DNA from: Thermothelomyces thermophilus ATCC 42464
Taxonomy: Eukaryota > Ascomycota > Sordariomycetes > Sordariales > Chaetomiaceae
DNA length: 64,000 nt
Direction of reading: 5' to 3'
NCBI RefSeq assembly: GCF_000226095.1
Contig: NC_016473.1
Coordinates: 4,340,001-4,404,000, forward strand
Of the stretch, positions 1 to 36,719 are shown piece by piece. The translations under genes were made by a program, and so were the position numbers. The notes beneath the pieces were generated by a model. That model did no database searches and was not told where the DNA came from. It saw only the letters and a list, made by a program, of their open reading frames with translations. How positions within the stretch are numbered: the first letter of the stretch is position 1; each line of letters begins with the position of its first letter.

Positions 1-1016
1 CTGCGACCGCGAGTCTTGCATGCTGACCGTCGTGCCGGTGGGAATGTGGGTCAGGCGGATGGCCGACTCGGTCTTGTTGACGTGTTGCCCGCCAGCACCG
101 CTGGCCCGCATCTTCTCGCTACGCACCTCGCTCGGGTCGACGTAGAAGTCGCTCTCGGGGTTATCCCAGTCGGCCTCCGACTCCGAGGTGCTGTTCTCCG
201 GAAAGGAAGGCAGCACCCAAACCGCGACGGCGCTCGTGTGGGTGCGCCCGCTCTTTTCCGTGGCCGGCACTCGCTGAACGCGGTGCATGCCCGCCTCACC
301 GCGGAAGATGCCGTAGGCGCCCGGTTCCTGGACCTCCAGCACGGCTTCTTGCAGAGGGATCTCTCCCTCGGAGCCCGTGGAGCCGTCGCTGTCCGATGCC
401 TCATACTGCACGACTCGTGTGCGGTAACCCTTGTTGGCGCAGTATGCCTTGTACATGCGGAATATCGTGTCGGCGAAGAAGCGCCCCTCGGTGCCGCCAG
501 GGCCGGGCCGTACCTCGAGCAGGCAGGGCATGTCGGCAAACGGGTGCTTGGGCGTCAGGGCCGCCGAGAGGTTGTGGCACGACTCCTCGAGCTGGGCGTT
601 GGTGGCCTCGAGGTCGTCCCTCGCCAGCTCCCGCATCTCAGCATCGTCTGACTCGAGCAGGCCCTGGAGCTCGCTGAGGGCAGCCTTCGCCTTCTCGAAC
701 TGCTTCAGCGCCTCGGCGACCCTCGAGATCTCGCCGGCGCGCTTGGCCTTCTTTGGGTCAAAGCTTTTTTCCAATGCGGCGCTCAATTGGTCGTGCTCGG
801 CCGTGAGCCTCCGGGCGCGTTCGAGAAGGGCGGGCGGGAGCTTAATCGTAATGTCTACTTGGCCAATGCCGCTGTCAATGGATTGAACACTGGAGCTGCG
901 ATCGCAGGACGGGAGAGAGCGGTAGTACCTGTGCTGGCTCGTCGAACGAAATGGATGAAGCCGGCGCGTCTCAAGGACCGCACACAGCTACGGCACACCC
1001 ATGGTGCTGCCAACAT
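1..1016 (-). CDS. MRF1: Mitochondrial class I peptide chain release factor (mRF1), 3'-truncated by window
   Basis: Releases finished proteins from mitochondrial ribosomes at UAA/UAG stops. Visible exons, in minus-strand order, are 1016..891 and 840..1, giving 322 codons; the C-terminus lies outside the window. The protein begins MLAAPWVCRSC, followed by an Arg/Ser-rich stretch typical of a mitochondrial presequence. Next come a coiled-coil-like helical region (LPPALLERARRL onward), the PCRF domain (RPGPGGTEGRFFADTIF), and the catalytic GGQ loop (RASGAGGQHVNKTESAIR) close to the window edge. The 50-bp intron at 841..890 is inferred. Without it the leader frame stops at once; with it the frame runs straight into the PCRF domain. 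Its donor, GTGTTC, is weak, so the first exon is less certain than the rest. The family assignment is firm. Whether it is the general mRF1 or a close paralogue rests on overall resemblance. Confidence 0.88.
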
Positions 1017-1385: not shown

Positions 1386-3571
1386 ATGGCGACGAATGTC
1401 GACGCCGCGGCCCTTGACGAGACGCCAATTTCCGAGAGCGTGCATAAACCGAGCAAGCAGACCGTCGACCCCTACAATGTTGGTGATCTCCTGCGGGCGA
1501 GCGGGCGGGGAACTTGAGCATCTGACAGAGCCTGATGCCGTTTTCTTATAACAGGTCTCGGGCGAAGTTGGCGAGGACGGCGTGGTCAAGGCCATCGACT
1601 ACAACAAGTTGATCGACGAGTTTGGCACCAAGAAGATCGACGACGAGCTGCTTGCCCGCTTCGAGCGTGTGACCGGCAAGCGCCCGCACCACTTCCTCCG
1701 ACGAGGCATCGTCTTTTCTCACAGGGACTTTGAGCTCATCCTCGACCGCTACGAGCGCGGCGAGCCCTTCTTCCTCTACACCGGTCGGGGGCCCTCGTCC
1801 GACAGCGTCCACGTCGGGCACACGATCCCGTTCGAGTTCACCAAGTGTACGCACAAAACCATCACCGCACCAGCGTGCCAGTTGTTGGGGACCCCGGGGT
1901 GGTAGACTCTGGAGGCCGTGTGAGGCAGGGGCTAACGCAACCGATACAGGGCTCCAGGATACCTTCGATGTCCCCGTACGTTGGTTCGGATGGGCCAAGA
2001 ATCCGTCCAGGGCAAGGCTAACGTTATGAAGCTCATTATCATGATGACGGATGACGAGAAGTAAGCTCAAGGGCCTCGTGGCGGGTATGGAGCGTTCGAC
2101 TAACGAAGGTCCCAGGTATCTGTTCTCCGAGAAGAAAACGATTGAGGAGGTTCAGGGCTATTGCACCAATAACGCAAAGGACATCATTGCGATTGGTTTT
2201 GACCCGGCCAAGACATTCATCTTCTCTGATGTAAGCACAGAGGGCATGGTGCCAAGGACCGAGGAGACTGACCTGAGTTCACAGTTCGACTACGTCGGGG
2301 GTGCCTTCTACAGGAACATTGTCCGCCTGTCAAAGCACATCACCCTCAACCAGGCCCGCGCCATCTTTGGCTTCAACGACAGCACCAACATCGGGCGGAT
2401 CCACTTCGGCAGCATCCAGGGTGCGTGGTAACCCAGCCAGCTCCCCTGGCAAGGAGAAGCGTCTAATGGCAGCGTAGGTGCAACCAGCTGGGCTTCCTCG
2501 TTCCCGCATATTTTCGGTGATGACGAGTCTAAGACGGTCGGGATACCGGCGCTCATGTAAGACCCCCCGAAAGGATCTTATTCTTATTCTGACAAGACTA
2601 ACAAAGTTGAAGTCCATGCGCTATTGACCAAGACCCGTAGGTGACACCCGAATTAGCAAGCGTGAAGCCAAGTCTGACTTCTGATTCACGTACCTCCCCA
2701 CCCCACCCCGAATGGTTGTGCTGACGAGTATTAGATGTGAGGACCTCAAACCGCTATTGCAGCCAAGCTTTGCGTTTTTACTAACCAGCACAGACTTCCG
2801 CATGACGCGCGATGTGTCGGCAAGGTTGAAGTACCAGGGGAAGCCCTACGCCAAGCCATCCCTCATCCACGCGCTGTTCCTGCCGGCTCTTCAGGGGCCC
2901 GGGACCAAGGTACGCCCCGAGCTTCTCCTGGAGACCCAAGTTGTGCTGACAGCGTGCCTAGATGTCGGCGTCTATCGATGAGTCAGCGAGTAAGTGAACC
3001 GAGGCTCTGGGACCCACAACTGTGCGCTGACGGCGTAAAAGTCTTTTTGAAAGACACTCCCAATCAGATCAAGAACAAGATCAACAAATATGCCTTCTCC
3101 GGCGGCAAGGTGTCGCAGGAGGAACACCGCCAGTACGGAGGTGACACGAGCGTCGATGTGGCTTACCAATACCTCCGCTTCTTCCTCGAAGATGACGAAG
3201 AGCTTGAGAGGATCAAGGTGGAATATGAGAGCGGGAGGATGTTGACTGGCGAACTGAAGGCCATCTGCATCAGGGAGCTCCAGAAGTATGTTGCCGCGTT
3301 TCAGGAGAGGAGAGCCAAGGTGGACGACGAGACGGTCAAGCTGTTCATGGAGAGGCGGCCGCTCCAGTGGAGAGGCAACCCGCGCGCGCCCCTGGTTGTT
3401 CCCAAGGTTGAAAACGGAAACGCCGGTGATGCGACCCCGGATGGGGAAGGCAAGTTGACCAAGAACCAGCTCAAGAAGCTGGAGAAACAGAAGCAAATCG
3501 AGGCCAAGAAGGCGCAGAAGGCCAAGGAGAAGGCGGAGAAGGCGGAGAAAGCTGGCACGGAGGCGGCATGA
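1386..3571 (+). CDS. WRS1: Cytoplasmic tryptophan--tRNA ligase (12 exons)
   Basis: Charges tRNA-Trp in the cytosol (class Ic aminoacyl-tRNA synthetase). Exons: 1386..1478, 1555..1846, 1950..1975, 2032..2060, 2116..2230, 2285..2420, 2478..2556, 2613..2636, 2735..2736, 2794..2909, 2962..2989 and 3042..3571. They total 1470 nt, 489 residues. The HIGH-type signature is HVGH (in [15 protein letters not shown]) and the KMSKS loop is KMSAS at the start of exon 11. Other eukaryotic TrpRS blocks are [29 protein letters not shown] and [17 protein letters not shown]. The C-terminus is a Lys/Glu/Ala-rich helical tail. ATG 1386 sits in a good Kozak context (accATGg). Exon 9 is only 2 nt, chosen because it restores phase and the conserved Tyr of DPYF. 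The intron density is high for a fungal housekeeping gene. The function is certain; the least certain boundaries are exon 1 (donor GTTGGT) and the microexon. Confidence 0.95.
2735..2736 (+). other. Candidate 2-nt microexon in TrpRS gene
   Basis: The dinucleotide AT lies between an intron at 2637..2734 (donor GTAGGT, branch CTGAC, acceptor TATTAG) and an intron at 2737..2793 (donor GTGAGG, branch ACTAAC, acceptor GCACAG). Joining CC + AT + AC gives Pro-Tyr and completes the near-invariant DPYF of TrpRS. Skipping it shifts the frame. Alternatives in the same interval (CAAGC at 2654 onward, or TATTAGAT ending at 2736) keep phase but insert or change residues in the motif. Confidence 0.7.
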
Positions 3572-4676: not shown

Positions 4677-6975
4677 ATGCCCCTCCCTACATCGTCCGTA
4701 TACCCGCCGCCGAGCGGCGAGTTTATGAAATGGCCCAGCCGGAGGAGCGTGGTGCACAGCACCACGGGCATGGTGGCGTGCACCCAGCCGCTGGCGGCCA
4801 AGTGCGGCATCGCCATCCTCAATGCCGGCGGGAATGCTGCTGTAAGTTGTGTGTCTTGATCGGATTCGGGCCTACCTGTGGAAAGACTTGTGTCGAGACG
4901 CATTGGGCTAAGCAAGAGCCCCTTATCATTGCAATCAATGATCGCAGGACGCAGCCGTGGCAGTGGGTATGTAATCCTCCCCTCCCCACGAGCATCGTGT
5001 GGTTCAGCAGTGCGGACTGGACTGACGACGACGACGACCAAGCCGCCGGCCTCAACATGACGGAGCCGACGTCGACGGGCATCGGCGGCGACATGTTCTG
5101 CCTGTACTACGACGCCAAGACGGGCAAGGTGTCGGCGCTCAACGGGTCCGGCAGGTCCGGCGGCAAGTGCACGCTCGAGACGATCCGCAGGGACCTGGGG
5201 CTGGCCGACGACGAGGTCGGCCGGATCCCCCTGAGCAGCATCCACGCCGTCACCGTGCCGGGCGCCGCGGCCGGATGGGTCGACACGGTGGAGCGCTTCG
5301 GCAGCGGCAAGTTGACCCTGGAGCAGATCCTGGCGCCGGCCATCGAGCTGGGCGAGAAGGGATTCCCCGTGTCGGAAGATGCCGCCTTTCATGTAGGTTT
5401 TCTACCGGTCCCGTTCTGAACTTTGTTTTGAAACGTGATTTTTTTTATTTTTACTTTGGTTTTTTTGTTGTTGTTTTGTTTTTGTTTTGTTTTTCTCTTG
5501 TCTCTCTCTTTTTTTTTTTTTTATTGTTTTGTCTTCCCCCTTCCCCTCCCCTCCCCTCCCCTCCCTTCCCTTCTTCCCTCCCCCCCCCCCCTTTTTTTTT
5601 TCCCCCCTCCATCTCGACTGTGTTGTTGAAAGCTGACTTCTCCGAATAGTGGGGGCGCGGCGAGGAACAGCTGCGCAAGGCGTCGCCAAACTTTGCCGAG
5701 ATGCTCAAGGCGGACCCGTCAGCCCCTGACGGGGTCCGGGCCCCCCGGGCGGGGGACATCATGAAGATGCCCAACCTGGCCCGCACGTTCCGCACCCTCG
5801 CGGCCGAGGGCAAGAAGGGCTTCTACACGGGCCGCATCGCCGAGGAGATCGTGCGGGTGGTCCGGGACCGCGGCGGGCACCTCGAGCTCGCCGACCTCGA
5901 GCACCACCTGGAGCAGGGCAGCGAGCCGGTCGACCCCATCTCGCTCAAGTTCACCGGGCAGGGGCTCGCCTCCTCCTCACCCTCCCAGAGCGCCGGCGCC
6001 GGGGGCGTCGAGGTGTGGGAACACCCGCCCAACGGGCAGGGGATCGTGGCGCTCATGGCGCTCGGCATCATCCAGGAGCTCGAGAAGGCGGGCAAGATCC
6101 CGACCTTCACGCCGGCGGACCACAACACGGCGGCGTACCTGCACGTCATCATCGAGGCGCTCCGGATCGCCTTCGCGGACGCGCACTGGTTCGTGACGGA
6201 CCCGCACAGCGACCGGGCGCCGCCGACCGCGGCGCTGCTCTCGCCCGAGTACCTGGCCGAGCGGGCGCGGCTGTTCGACCCGGGCCGGGCGGCGGCGAAC
6301 CCGAGCCACGGCAACCCGTTCCCGTCGCCGGCGCTCCGCAGCAGCGACACGGTCTACTTCGCCGTGGCGGACGCCCAGGGCAACGCCATCTCCTTCATCA
6401 ACTCCAACTACACCGGCTTCGGCTCGGCCGCGATCCCGCGCGGCTGCGGCTTCACGCTGCAGAACCGCGGCGCCAACTTCAGCCTCGACCCGCGCCACCC
6501 CAACGTGCTGGCGCCGCGCAAGCGGCCCTACCACACCATCATCCCGGGGCTCGTCACCAGCCTGGCGGCCGACGGCGGCGGGTCGTCGTCGTCGCTGCAC
6601 TCCGTCTTCGGCGTCATGGGCGGCTTCATGCAGCCCCAGGGCCACGTCCAGGTGCTCCTGGGCCAGCTGGTCGGCGGCCTGAGCCCGCAGCAGGCGCTGG
6701 ACGCGCCGCGCGTGTGCATCGGCGCCGGCATGGCCGACGTCGGCGACGTGTACGGCGGCGTCGTCTACGTCGAGGAGGGCATGCCCGAGGAGACGATCCG
6801 CGGCCTGCGCGAGCTCGGCCACCCGGTCGAGGTCCTCGGCGGCTGGGGCGGCATGGGCAGGCAGATGTTCGGCCGCGGCCAGATCATCCGCTGGACGGTC
6901 GACCCCGTCGACGGTACGGGGGTGTGGTCGGCGGGCAGCGATATGAGGGGCGACGGGGCGGCGTATCCGGCGTAG
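4677..6975 (+). CDS. Gamma-glutamyltransferase-like Ntn hydrolase
   Basis: Members of this family cleave or transfer the gamma-glutamyl group of glutathione and related peptides. Exons: 4677..4841, 4948..4966, 5043..5392 and 5650..6975, giving 619 residues. Recognisable blocks are VVHSTTGMVACTQPLAA near the N-terminus, GGNAADAAVAVAAGLN across exons 1-3, the TGIGGDMF motif, and GAAAGWVDTVERFG. The putative autocatalytic and nucleophile Thr412 is in SSDTVYFAVAD, followed by NSNYTGFGSAAIPRGCGFTLQNRG. No signal peptide or membrane anchor is seen, unlike secreted GGT, so it resembles the soluble YwrD-like branch and may act in the cytosol. Exon 2 is only 19 nt. Intron 3 (5393..5649) is an extreme pyrimidine tract. 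The donor and acceptor of exon 2 are the least secure joins. True substrate specificity cannot be read from sequence. Confidence 0.88.
5430..5633 (+). repeat. T/C-only low-complexity tract in GGT-like intron 3
   Basis: About 200 bp is almost free of A: T runs with scattered G, then C-rich and CCCT blocks, a run of C around 5580 and a T run around 5592. It lies wholly inside the intron upstream of the TCCGAATAG acceptor. The tract is polymorphism-prone and could form triplex DNA; no function is claimed. Confidence 0.85.
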
Positions 6976-36300: not shown

Positions 36301-36719
36301 CTACAGAGTTAGGCTCTTGACATGTTCCTCGTCTTTTTTTCCGCAGGGGTAGACGCATCGCACGCACCACATAGTTATGGCGAATGAAGTTCTTGAAAGC
36401 GAGAGCGGCGGCGAGGCGGATCTTGAGGGGTTGAGCATCGGCGTTCACGATGCTAAGGAGCGACAAGGAATATTTCGGCTTCTTCGATTCCTCTTTGAGG
36501 GCATTCTCAGCTGTACAAGCTCGGCCGTTAGTACTGCGGTCAGAGGTTCGAAGTATAAGGACGTCATCCAAAGTCTGGACCCGGCGACACTGCGGGCATA
36601 GAATGGCGGGGCTACCATGCTCGGAGCATTTGAAGGCTCAGGAACTTGCCTTTACGATGGCTCTGCGCATCCAAAGTTGCATTCAGCAACTGGGCGAGGT
36701 GATCCAATGTTGAGGCCAT
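33337..36719 (-). CDS. CSE1: Exportin-2 / importin-alpha re-exporter Cse1
   Basis: Karyopherin that binds importin-alpha with RanGTP in the nucleus and returns it to the cytosol. Exons in minus order: 36719..36650, 36510..36368, 36297..36130, 36058..35888, 35827..34518, 34463..34381, 34326..34023 and 33967..33337. They total 2880 nt, 959 residues, matching yeast Cse1 (960). The N-terminal importin-beta-like repeat begins MASTLDHLAQLLNATLD and runs through KIRLAAALAFKNFIRHNYV. HEAT-like helices make up the rest, with the Cse1 marks EDEPIEFIRRDLEGSDTDSRRR, FYYYHFEAIGALVRYCGNSP and VLEPYFGTIITLIFTKLQ. The C-terminus is EAKAALAPYLA. Intron 1 (36511..36649) uses a GC donor (AAAG|GCAAGT); the others are GT-AG. 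The seven introns are concentrated at the two ends, with a 1.3-kb exon in the middle. It shares an 1.8-kb promoter region with the Tsc2-like gene. Confidence 0.96.

Follow-up and report, generated by a model that had tools for sequence, protein, structure and literature searches.

A predicted two-nucleotide exon in the conserved DPYF motif of the tryptophanyl-tRNA synthetase gene of Thermothelomyces thermophilus

Ultra-small exons have been described in several eukaryotes. Exons of 2 to 5 base pairs are cited for Arabidopsis, Drosophila and humans (PMC12940212), and exons of a single nucleotide are documented in the plant genes APC11 (PMC4674806) and VPS55 (PMC8831610). In Fusarium, the gene CYP621A contains a 1-nt exon which its authors call the first in a fungal gene; the exon was wrong in gene models and was confirmed by 18 transcript reads from two species (PMC12940212). 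The gene considered here, for tryptophanyl-tRNA synthetase (TrpRS), the enzyme that charges tRNA with tryptophan, would add another member to this group, a two-nucleotide exon AT. It has in common with CYP621A the type of organism, a filamentous ascomycete, the location of the ultra-small exon in a strictly conserved motif, and the need for this exon to keep the phase between two short introns. The differences are also clear: the CYP621A exon has one base instead of two, belongs to a P450 of unknown function and not to an aminoacyl-tRNA synthetase, and has been shown in 20 orthologues, whereas the AT exon is predicted from the DNA of one genome. APC11 and VPS55 likewise place an ultra-small exon between two introns, although these are plant genes with experimentally verified exons of 1 nt, whereas the TrpRS exon is predicted from sequence.

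A different kind of relative is found in the same subphylum. The stwintrons of Pezizomycotina (PMC5639578, PMC6616335) also undergo two consecutive U2 reactions on one stretch, but there a splice signal of the external intron is interrupted by an internal one, and no exon remains. Reading the TrpRS junction as a stwintron was rejected, since both of its introns are complete on their own and excising all 157 nt breaks the frame, leaving 309 aa. Among the open-access matches listed in our literature search, there was neither a 2-nt exon in a fungus nor the TrpRS gene as a case, and phrases describing a 2-nt exon retrieved no open-access paper.

The gene lies near the start of the window, i.e., the whole stretch of 64,000 nucleotides that was analysed, at C2:4340001-4404000 of the genome. 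Its structure and the anatomy of the junction are as follows.

1386..3571, + strand: cytosolic TrpRS gene; 12 exons, spliced product of 489 aa (2ip1, E=5.2e-160; TIGR00233, 288.7 bits)
1386-1478, 1555-1846, 1950-1975, 2032-2060, 2116-2230 and 2285-2420, + strand: exons 1-6
2478-2556, 2613-2636, 2735-2736, 2794-2909, 2962-2989 and 3042-3571, + strand: exons 7-12
2613..2636, + strand: exon 8, 24 nt; codes for PCAIDQD and the first two bases of Pro, ending GACCC at 2636
2637..2734, + strand: intron 8, 98 nt, phase 2; donor GTAGGT, branch-like GCTGAC, acceptor TATTAG; 22.2 bits
2735..2736, + strand: predicted exon 9, microexon AT of 2 nt; completes Pro (third base) and opens Tyr (first base); assessed by frame, motif, model comparison and chance controls
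2737..2793, + strand: intron 9, 57 nt, phase 1; donor GTGAGG, branch-like ACTAAC, acceptor GCACAG; 19.8 bits
2794..2909, + strand: exon 10, starting ACTTCCGC; last two bases of Tyr, followed by FRMTRDV

The identity of the product is well defined. With AT included, the 12 exons give a coding sequence of 1470 nt, that is, 489 codons and a stop, with no internal stop. Of the solved relatives, 2ip1 and 3kt0 come closest, both with E about 5e-160 and both, as we take it, yeast TrpRS; 2quh (E=2.5e-147), presumably the human enzyme, follows. The NCBIfam model TIGR00233 (trpS) gives the microexon-containing product 288.7 bits, for a cut-off of 176.75. Homology over the full length, together with DQDPYFR and KMSAS, which we understand to be motif names of TrpRS, places the product among the eukaryotic cytosolic enzymes. 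A protein search of the whole genome (38,744,216 bases in 7 contigs), in which the best candidates are scored, gave seven matches, all seven inside this gene, and thus detected no second cytosolic copy at that depth. This search replaced one with Pfam PF00579, whose four matches in the genome are all outside the TrpRS gene; since the gene itself was not matched, PF00579 is unfit as a census of paralogues. No Rfam family matched within the 64-kb window at gathering thresholds. A hidden Markov model (HMM) of gene structure, described below, predicts as neighbours a gene at about 4..1002 on the - strand, which by eye resembles a mitochondrial peptide chain release factor, and one at 4677..6975 on the + strand, which resembles a gamma-glutamyltranspeptidase, also by eye.

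The initial annotation had proposed the 2-nt exon from the letters of the sequence, and its coordinates and splice motifs all match the DNA. It had also argued that including AT gives DPYF and makes the coding sequence divisible by 3, and this is exactly what is obtained: the codons over the junction are GAC, CC+A, T+AC and TTC, reading D-P-Y-F, within 1470 nt. Its further argument, that a single intron shifts the frame, is right for 2637..2793, but it fails for five single introns that start from the same donor and end at 2728, 2734, 2767, 2788 or 2824, all of which keep the frame without a stop, and none of which gives DPYF. The argument from frame is thus incomplete because in-frame readings with one intron exist, and what carries the case is that the motif is conserved and that intron 9 is of good quality.

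Possible structures were enumerated on this basis. With one intron, taking GT or GC donors from 2600 and acceptors up to 2849, there are 21 in-frame, stop-free options, and DQDPYF appears in none. With two introns, the donor being fixed at 2637 and the final acceptor at 2788 or 2793, there are five, two of them with a second intron shorter than 40 nt, and DQDPYF is formed only by the AT option. The AT exon has a complete U2 intron on each side and is needed for both the frame and a conserved motif, as would be expected of a microexon below 3 nt. The proposal of the initial annotation is therefore well supported, AT being the sole enumerated structure with DQDPYF and the best by local likelihood among the six scored. 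We consider that TrpRS is most probably made from 12 exons, the ninth being the AT that completes Pro-Tyr of DQDPYFR, with its flanking introns removed sequentially, and we assign to this reading a probability of roughly 0.88.

At the level of the protein, the DPYF region aligns without gaps with the five solved TrpRS sequences shown in the alignment, and in the chain of 2quh the Tyr is residue 316, flanked by Pro315 and Phe317 in the numbering of the alignment. We assume that, in the human enzyme, the tryptophan site is lined by Gln313 and Phe317. Scanning GTDB genomes turned up 56 TrpRS loci, 53 of which cover the DPYF position (all except L065, L066 and L068). In these 53 homologues there is no insertion between Pro and Phe in any case, and the residue between them varies: 18 have Tyr, 34 have His and 1 has Phe. 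The set is not free of bias at the motif, given the use of DQDPYFRM as one of the six search peptides; the exact string DQDPYFRM occurs in only 4 of the 53. Judging by record titles, the homologues are mostly archaeal, with a few eukaryote-like genes in contigs labelled as bacterial. No fungal TrpRS locus was recognised in the scans of GTDB genomes or of IMG/VR viral contigs.

Four of the bacterial-labelled contigs deserve a comment of their own. L048 (JAQTXT010000043.1, about 601-1799) carries a eukaryote-type TrpRS in a contig labelled Rickettsiales; the locus has 29% GC and seven in-frame TAA codons in two matched stretches separated by a short gap, and it reads well if TAA is taken as Gln, which one would expect if ciliate-like DNA had ended up in a bacterial bin. 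L018, L056 and L068 contain eukaryote-like TrpRS genes in contigs labelled Crocinitomicaceae, Betaproteobacteria and Phaeodactylibacter. The gap between the two matches of L018 contains GTGAGT and looks intron-like, while that of L056 is a run of N. These three are possibly eukaryotic contamination of the bins.

The most serious competitor of the 12-exon structure is the removal of intron 8 alone (2637..2734), leaving the 57 nt of intron 9 as coding sequence. The length of intron 9 is a multiple of three and it has no stop when retained, and the result is an open TrpRS of 508 aa with 19 net residues between DP and F. The protein evidence is against this, as the position held by Y, H or F in 53/53 homologues would be replaced and 19 net residues would be added at a point where all 53 are free of insertions, and the TIGR00233 score falls by 28 bits, to 260.7. 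In addition, the codons of the putative insert, 19 in number, come out at -3.5 bits relative to background composition. We regard this structure as quite unlikely, even though it comes second to the microexon by local likelihood. A pipeline that does not allow for microexons is expected to choose it.

Another option is a single intron 2637..2788, ending at a CAG five bases upstream, after which the exon would resume with CACAGACTTCC and the protein would have 490 aa, with DPTDFR in place of DPYFR. This is also in frame and stopless, but the acceptor adjoins ACTAAC, so that the poor branch site GCCAAG would be needed, and the conserved Tyr would be lost and the next Phe shifted by one residue. 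TIGR00233 gives 277.3 bits in this case versus 288.7 with the microexon, and we think that there is very little chance of this acceptor being the true one.

The splice signals of the two introns are typical of this genome. With log-odds of 22.2 and 19.8 bits, introns 8 and 9 are within the interquartile range of 143 model introns (median 21.7 bits, quartiles 19.6 and 23.2), a set which includes those of the TrpRS gene itself. The donor GTGAGG is uncommon, with one occurrence among the 138 model introns no longer than 150 nt. A local intron finder used at first called only 15 introns, none in the TrpRS gene, and was dropped. The structures were compared instead with the HMM, which receives no homology input, sets no minimum exon length, and was trained on the window together with 200 kb from another chromosome. 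By local likelihood, in which splice signals are combined with coding content, the microexon parse ranks first among the six structures scored, ahead of the retention of intron 9 by 3.5 bits when trained with the window and by 3.4 bits when trained without it, a modest margin obtained without homology. The deficits with respect to the microexon are 7.3 to 9.6 bits for acceptor 2788, 11 to 13 for 2767, 17 to 18 for a middle exon TATTAGAT and more than 20 for 2728.

Free decoding gave a less uniform picture. Two of the three decodings choose exactly 2735..2736, those from the fully trained model and from the model whose training left out the first 4600 bases of the window. In the leave-gene-out run the 2-nt exon is called and exon 8 is skipped. 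The HMM trained on the 200 kb alone misses the AT exon and places instead one intron of 373 nt at 2421..2793. Exons of this size are rare for the model: in the fully trained run the 2-nt exon is the sole internal exon of up to 5 nt among 126, and the leave-gene-out training set has one of 1 nt among 117 internal exons, as a prediction only. The three decodings also read intron 5 as coding, so that the HMM errs within the TrpRS gene. We take the HMM as supporting evidence for the microexon, not as proof.

Two side observations may be added. Intron 5 (2231..2284) has 54 nt, a multiple of three, and is stopless like intron 9; its retention would escape detection based on frame, and the gap-free alignment to 2ip1 around FIFSD requires that this intron be spliced out. 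In another part of the window, the fully trained HMM predicts an internal exon of 13 nt at 36650..36662 on the - strand, in a gene of nine exons, and this exon is absent from the leave-gene-out run.

The initial annotation had itself named two alternatives to the 2-nt exon, a single intron with a noncanonical donor after GACCCGT, which would be of the AG-AG type, and a longer middle exon, TATTAGAT. Both have some appeal, since GACCCGT joined to AC also reads D-P-Y and TATTAGAT is in frame. The AG-AG intron was rejected because an AG at the 5' end of an intron is not a U2 donor. TATTAGAT was rejected on a deficit of 16 to 18 bits below the microexon; it uses a GAG acceptor that has no good branch site, and it inserts two residues (DPIRYF). 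That either of them is the real structure seems to us highly improbable.

How often such an arrangement would appear by chance was estimated with several controls. In dinucleotide shuffles of the 157 nt that keep the real donor and acceptor, the observed combined score was reached by 4 in 20,000 with an exon of the form NT and by 6 in 20,000 with any 2-nt exon. In non-coding 157-mers of the genome, supplied with the real donor and the real last 30 nt and not independent of each other, as they overlap and come from both strands, the counts were 0 of 8,882 for NT and 4 of 8,882 for any dinucleotide. With a looser bar of at least 15 bits for both introns, the counts rise to 69 (NT) and 218 (any) per 20,000 shuffles and to 45 (NT) and 294 (any) per 8,882 non-coding stretches, and weak look-alikes are therefore not rare. 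For the retention of intron 9, the relevant control is the simulation of coding inserts, with the first base fixed as A and the last as G: an intron equal in quality to the real intron 9 arises once in 300,000 draws, and the bar of 15 bits is reached in 26 of them, which also speaks against the 57 nt being coding sequence.

Another explanation would be an error of assembly, with a true single intron 2637..2793 and two bases near the junction lost from the sequence. When AT is left out, the frame is off by exactly two bases, and the signals of the 157-nt intron are good (22.1 bits), both of which fit an error of this kind. On the other hand, the coding letters match the conserved protein up to both sites, so the loss must fall exactly at the junction, and it would be mere coincidence that a second, complete pair of splice sites flanks two bases by which Tyr is restored, in an assembly of 7 contigs for 38.7 Mb. 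This explanation appears remote to us. An origin of the introns as introners was rejected as well, given that the 311-nt stretch with both of them matches only itself in the genome, in a self-search that skips very common words and is hence not exhaustive.

Taken as a whole, the two-intron anatomy, the frame, a fit to DPYF that no other enumerated solution has, and the genome-typical signals are features of the DNA. The way in which the 12-exon transcript would be processed is a more inferential matter. Introns 8 and 9 would be excised in turn, through intron definition, because 3' and 5' splice sites that are 2 nt apart cannot hold two spliceosomes at once. Whichever intron leaves first, the two nucleotides would stay joined to a normal exon and the remaining intron would then be an ordinary one; both orders are workable on paper and the sequence favours neither. 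Sequential removal agrees with the intron definition argued for filamentous ascomycetes from stwintrons (PMC6616335), and with the intron definition and stepwise (recursive) removal that the authors of the APC11 study suggest for the 1-nt exon of Arabidopsis (PMC4674806).

The outcomes of incomplete splicing were computed. Skipping of AT, which joins 2636 to 2794, shifts the frame and leads to a stop at 309 aa, and the message of this product would presumably be a target of mRNA decay. Retention of intron 8 gives an immediate stop after 265 aa, and retention of intron 9 gives the open reading of 508 aa. The direct pairing of 2637 with 2793 scores 22.1 bits versus 22.2 for intron 8, about equal, and therefore some skipping would not surprise. 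The balance of AT inclusion against skipping or retention of intron 9 might even set the level of active TrpRS as a control point of expression, although we consider this improbable. As derived from the sequence, the junction strings are CAAGACCCATACTTCCGC for inclusion, CAAGACCCACTTCCGC for exon skipping, CAAGACCCATGTGAGG for retention of intron 9 and CAAGACCCCACAGACTTCC for acceptor 2788.

Ultra-small exons are already known, with 1 nt in Fusarium and in plants, and the AT of TrpRS would be one more. There is also a warning here for genome annotation. Gene-finding software could easily overlook the 2-nt exon, and the wrong model would put a false insertion of 19 residues beside a conserved TrpRS motif and raise no alarm, staying in frame because intron 9 has 57 nt and is stopless. 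If the 12-exon reading is true, a 2-nt exon in a universal enzyme joins the few ultra-small exons known, and the splicing machinery of this fungus can handle this kind of step reliably in a gene expected to be essential. We think that the two TrpRS introns may then offer a simple test case for a fixed order of intron removal.
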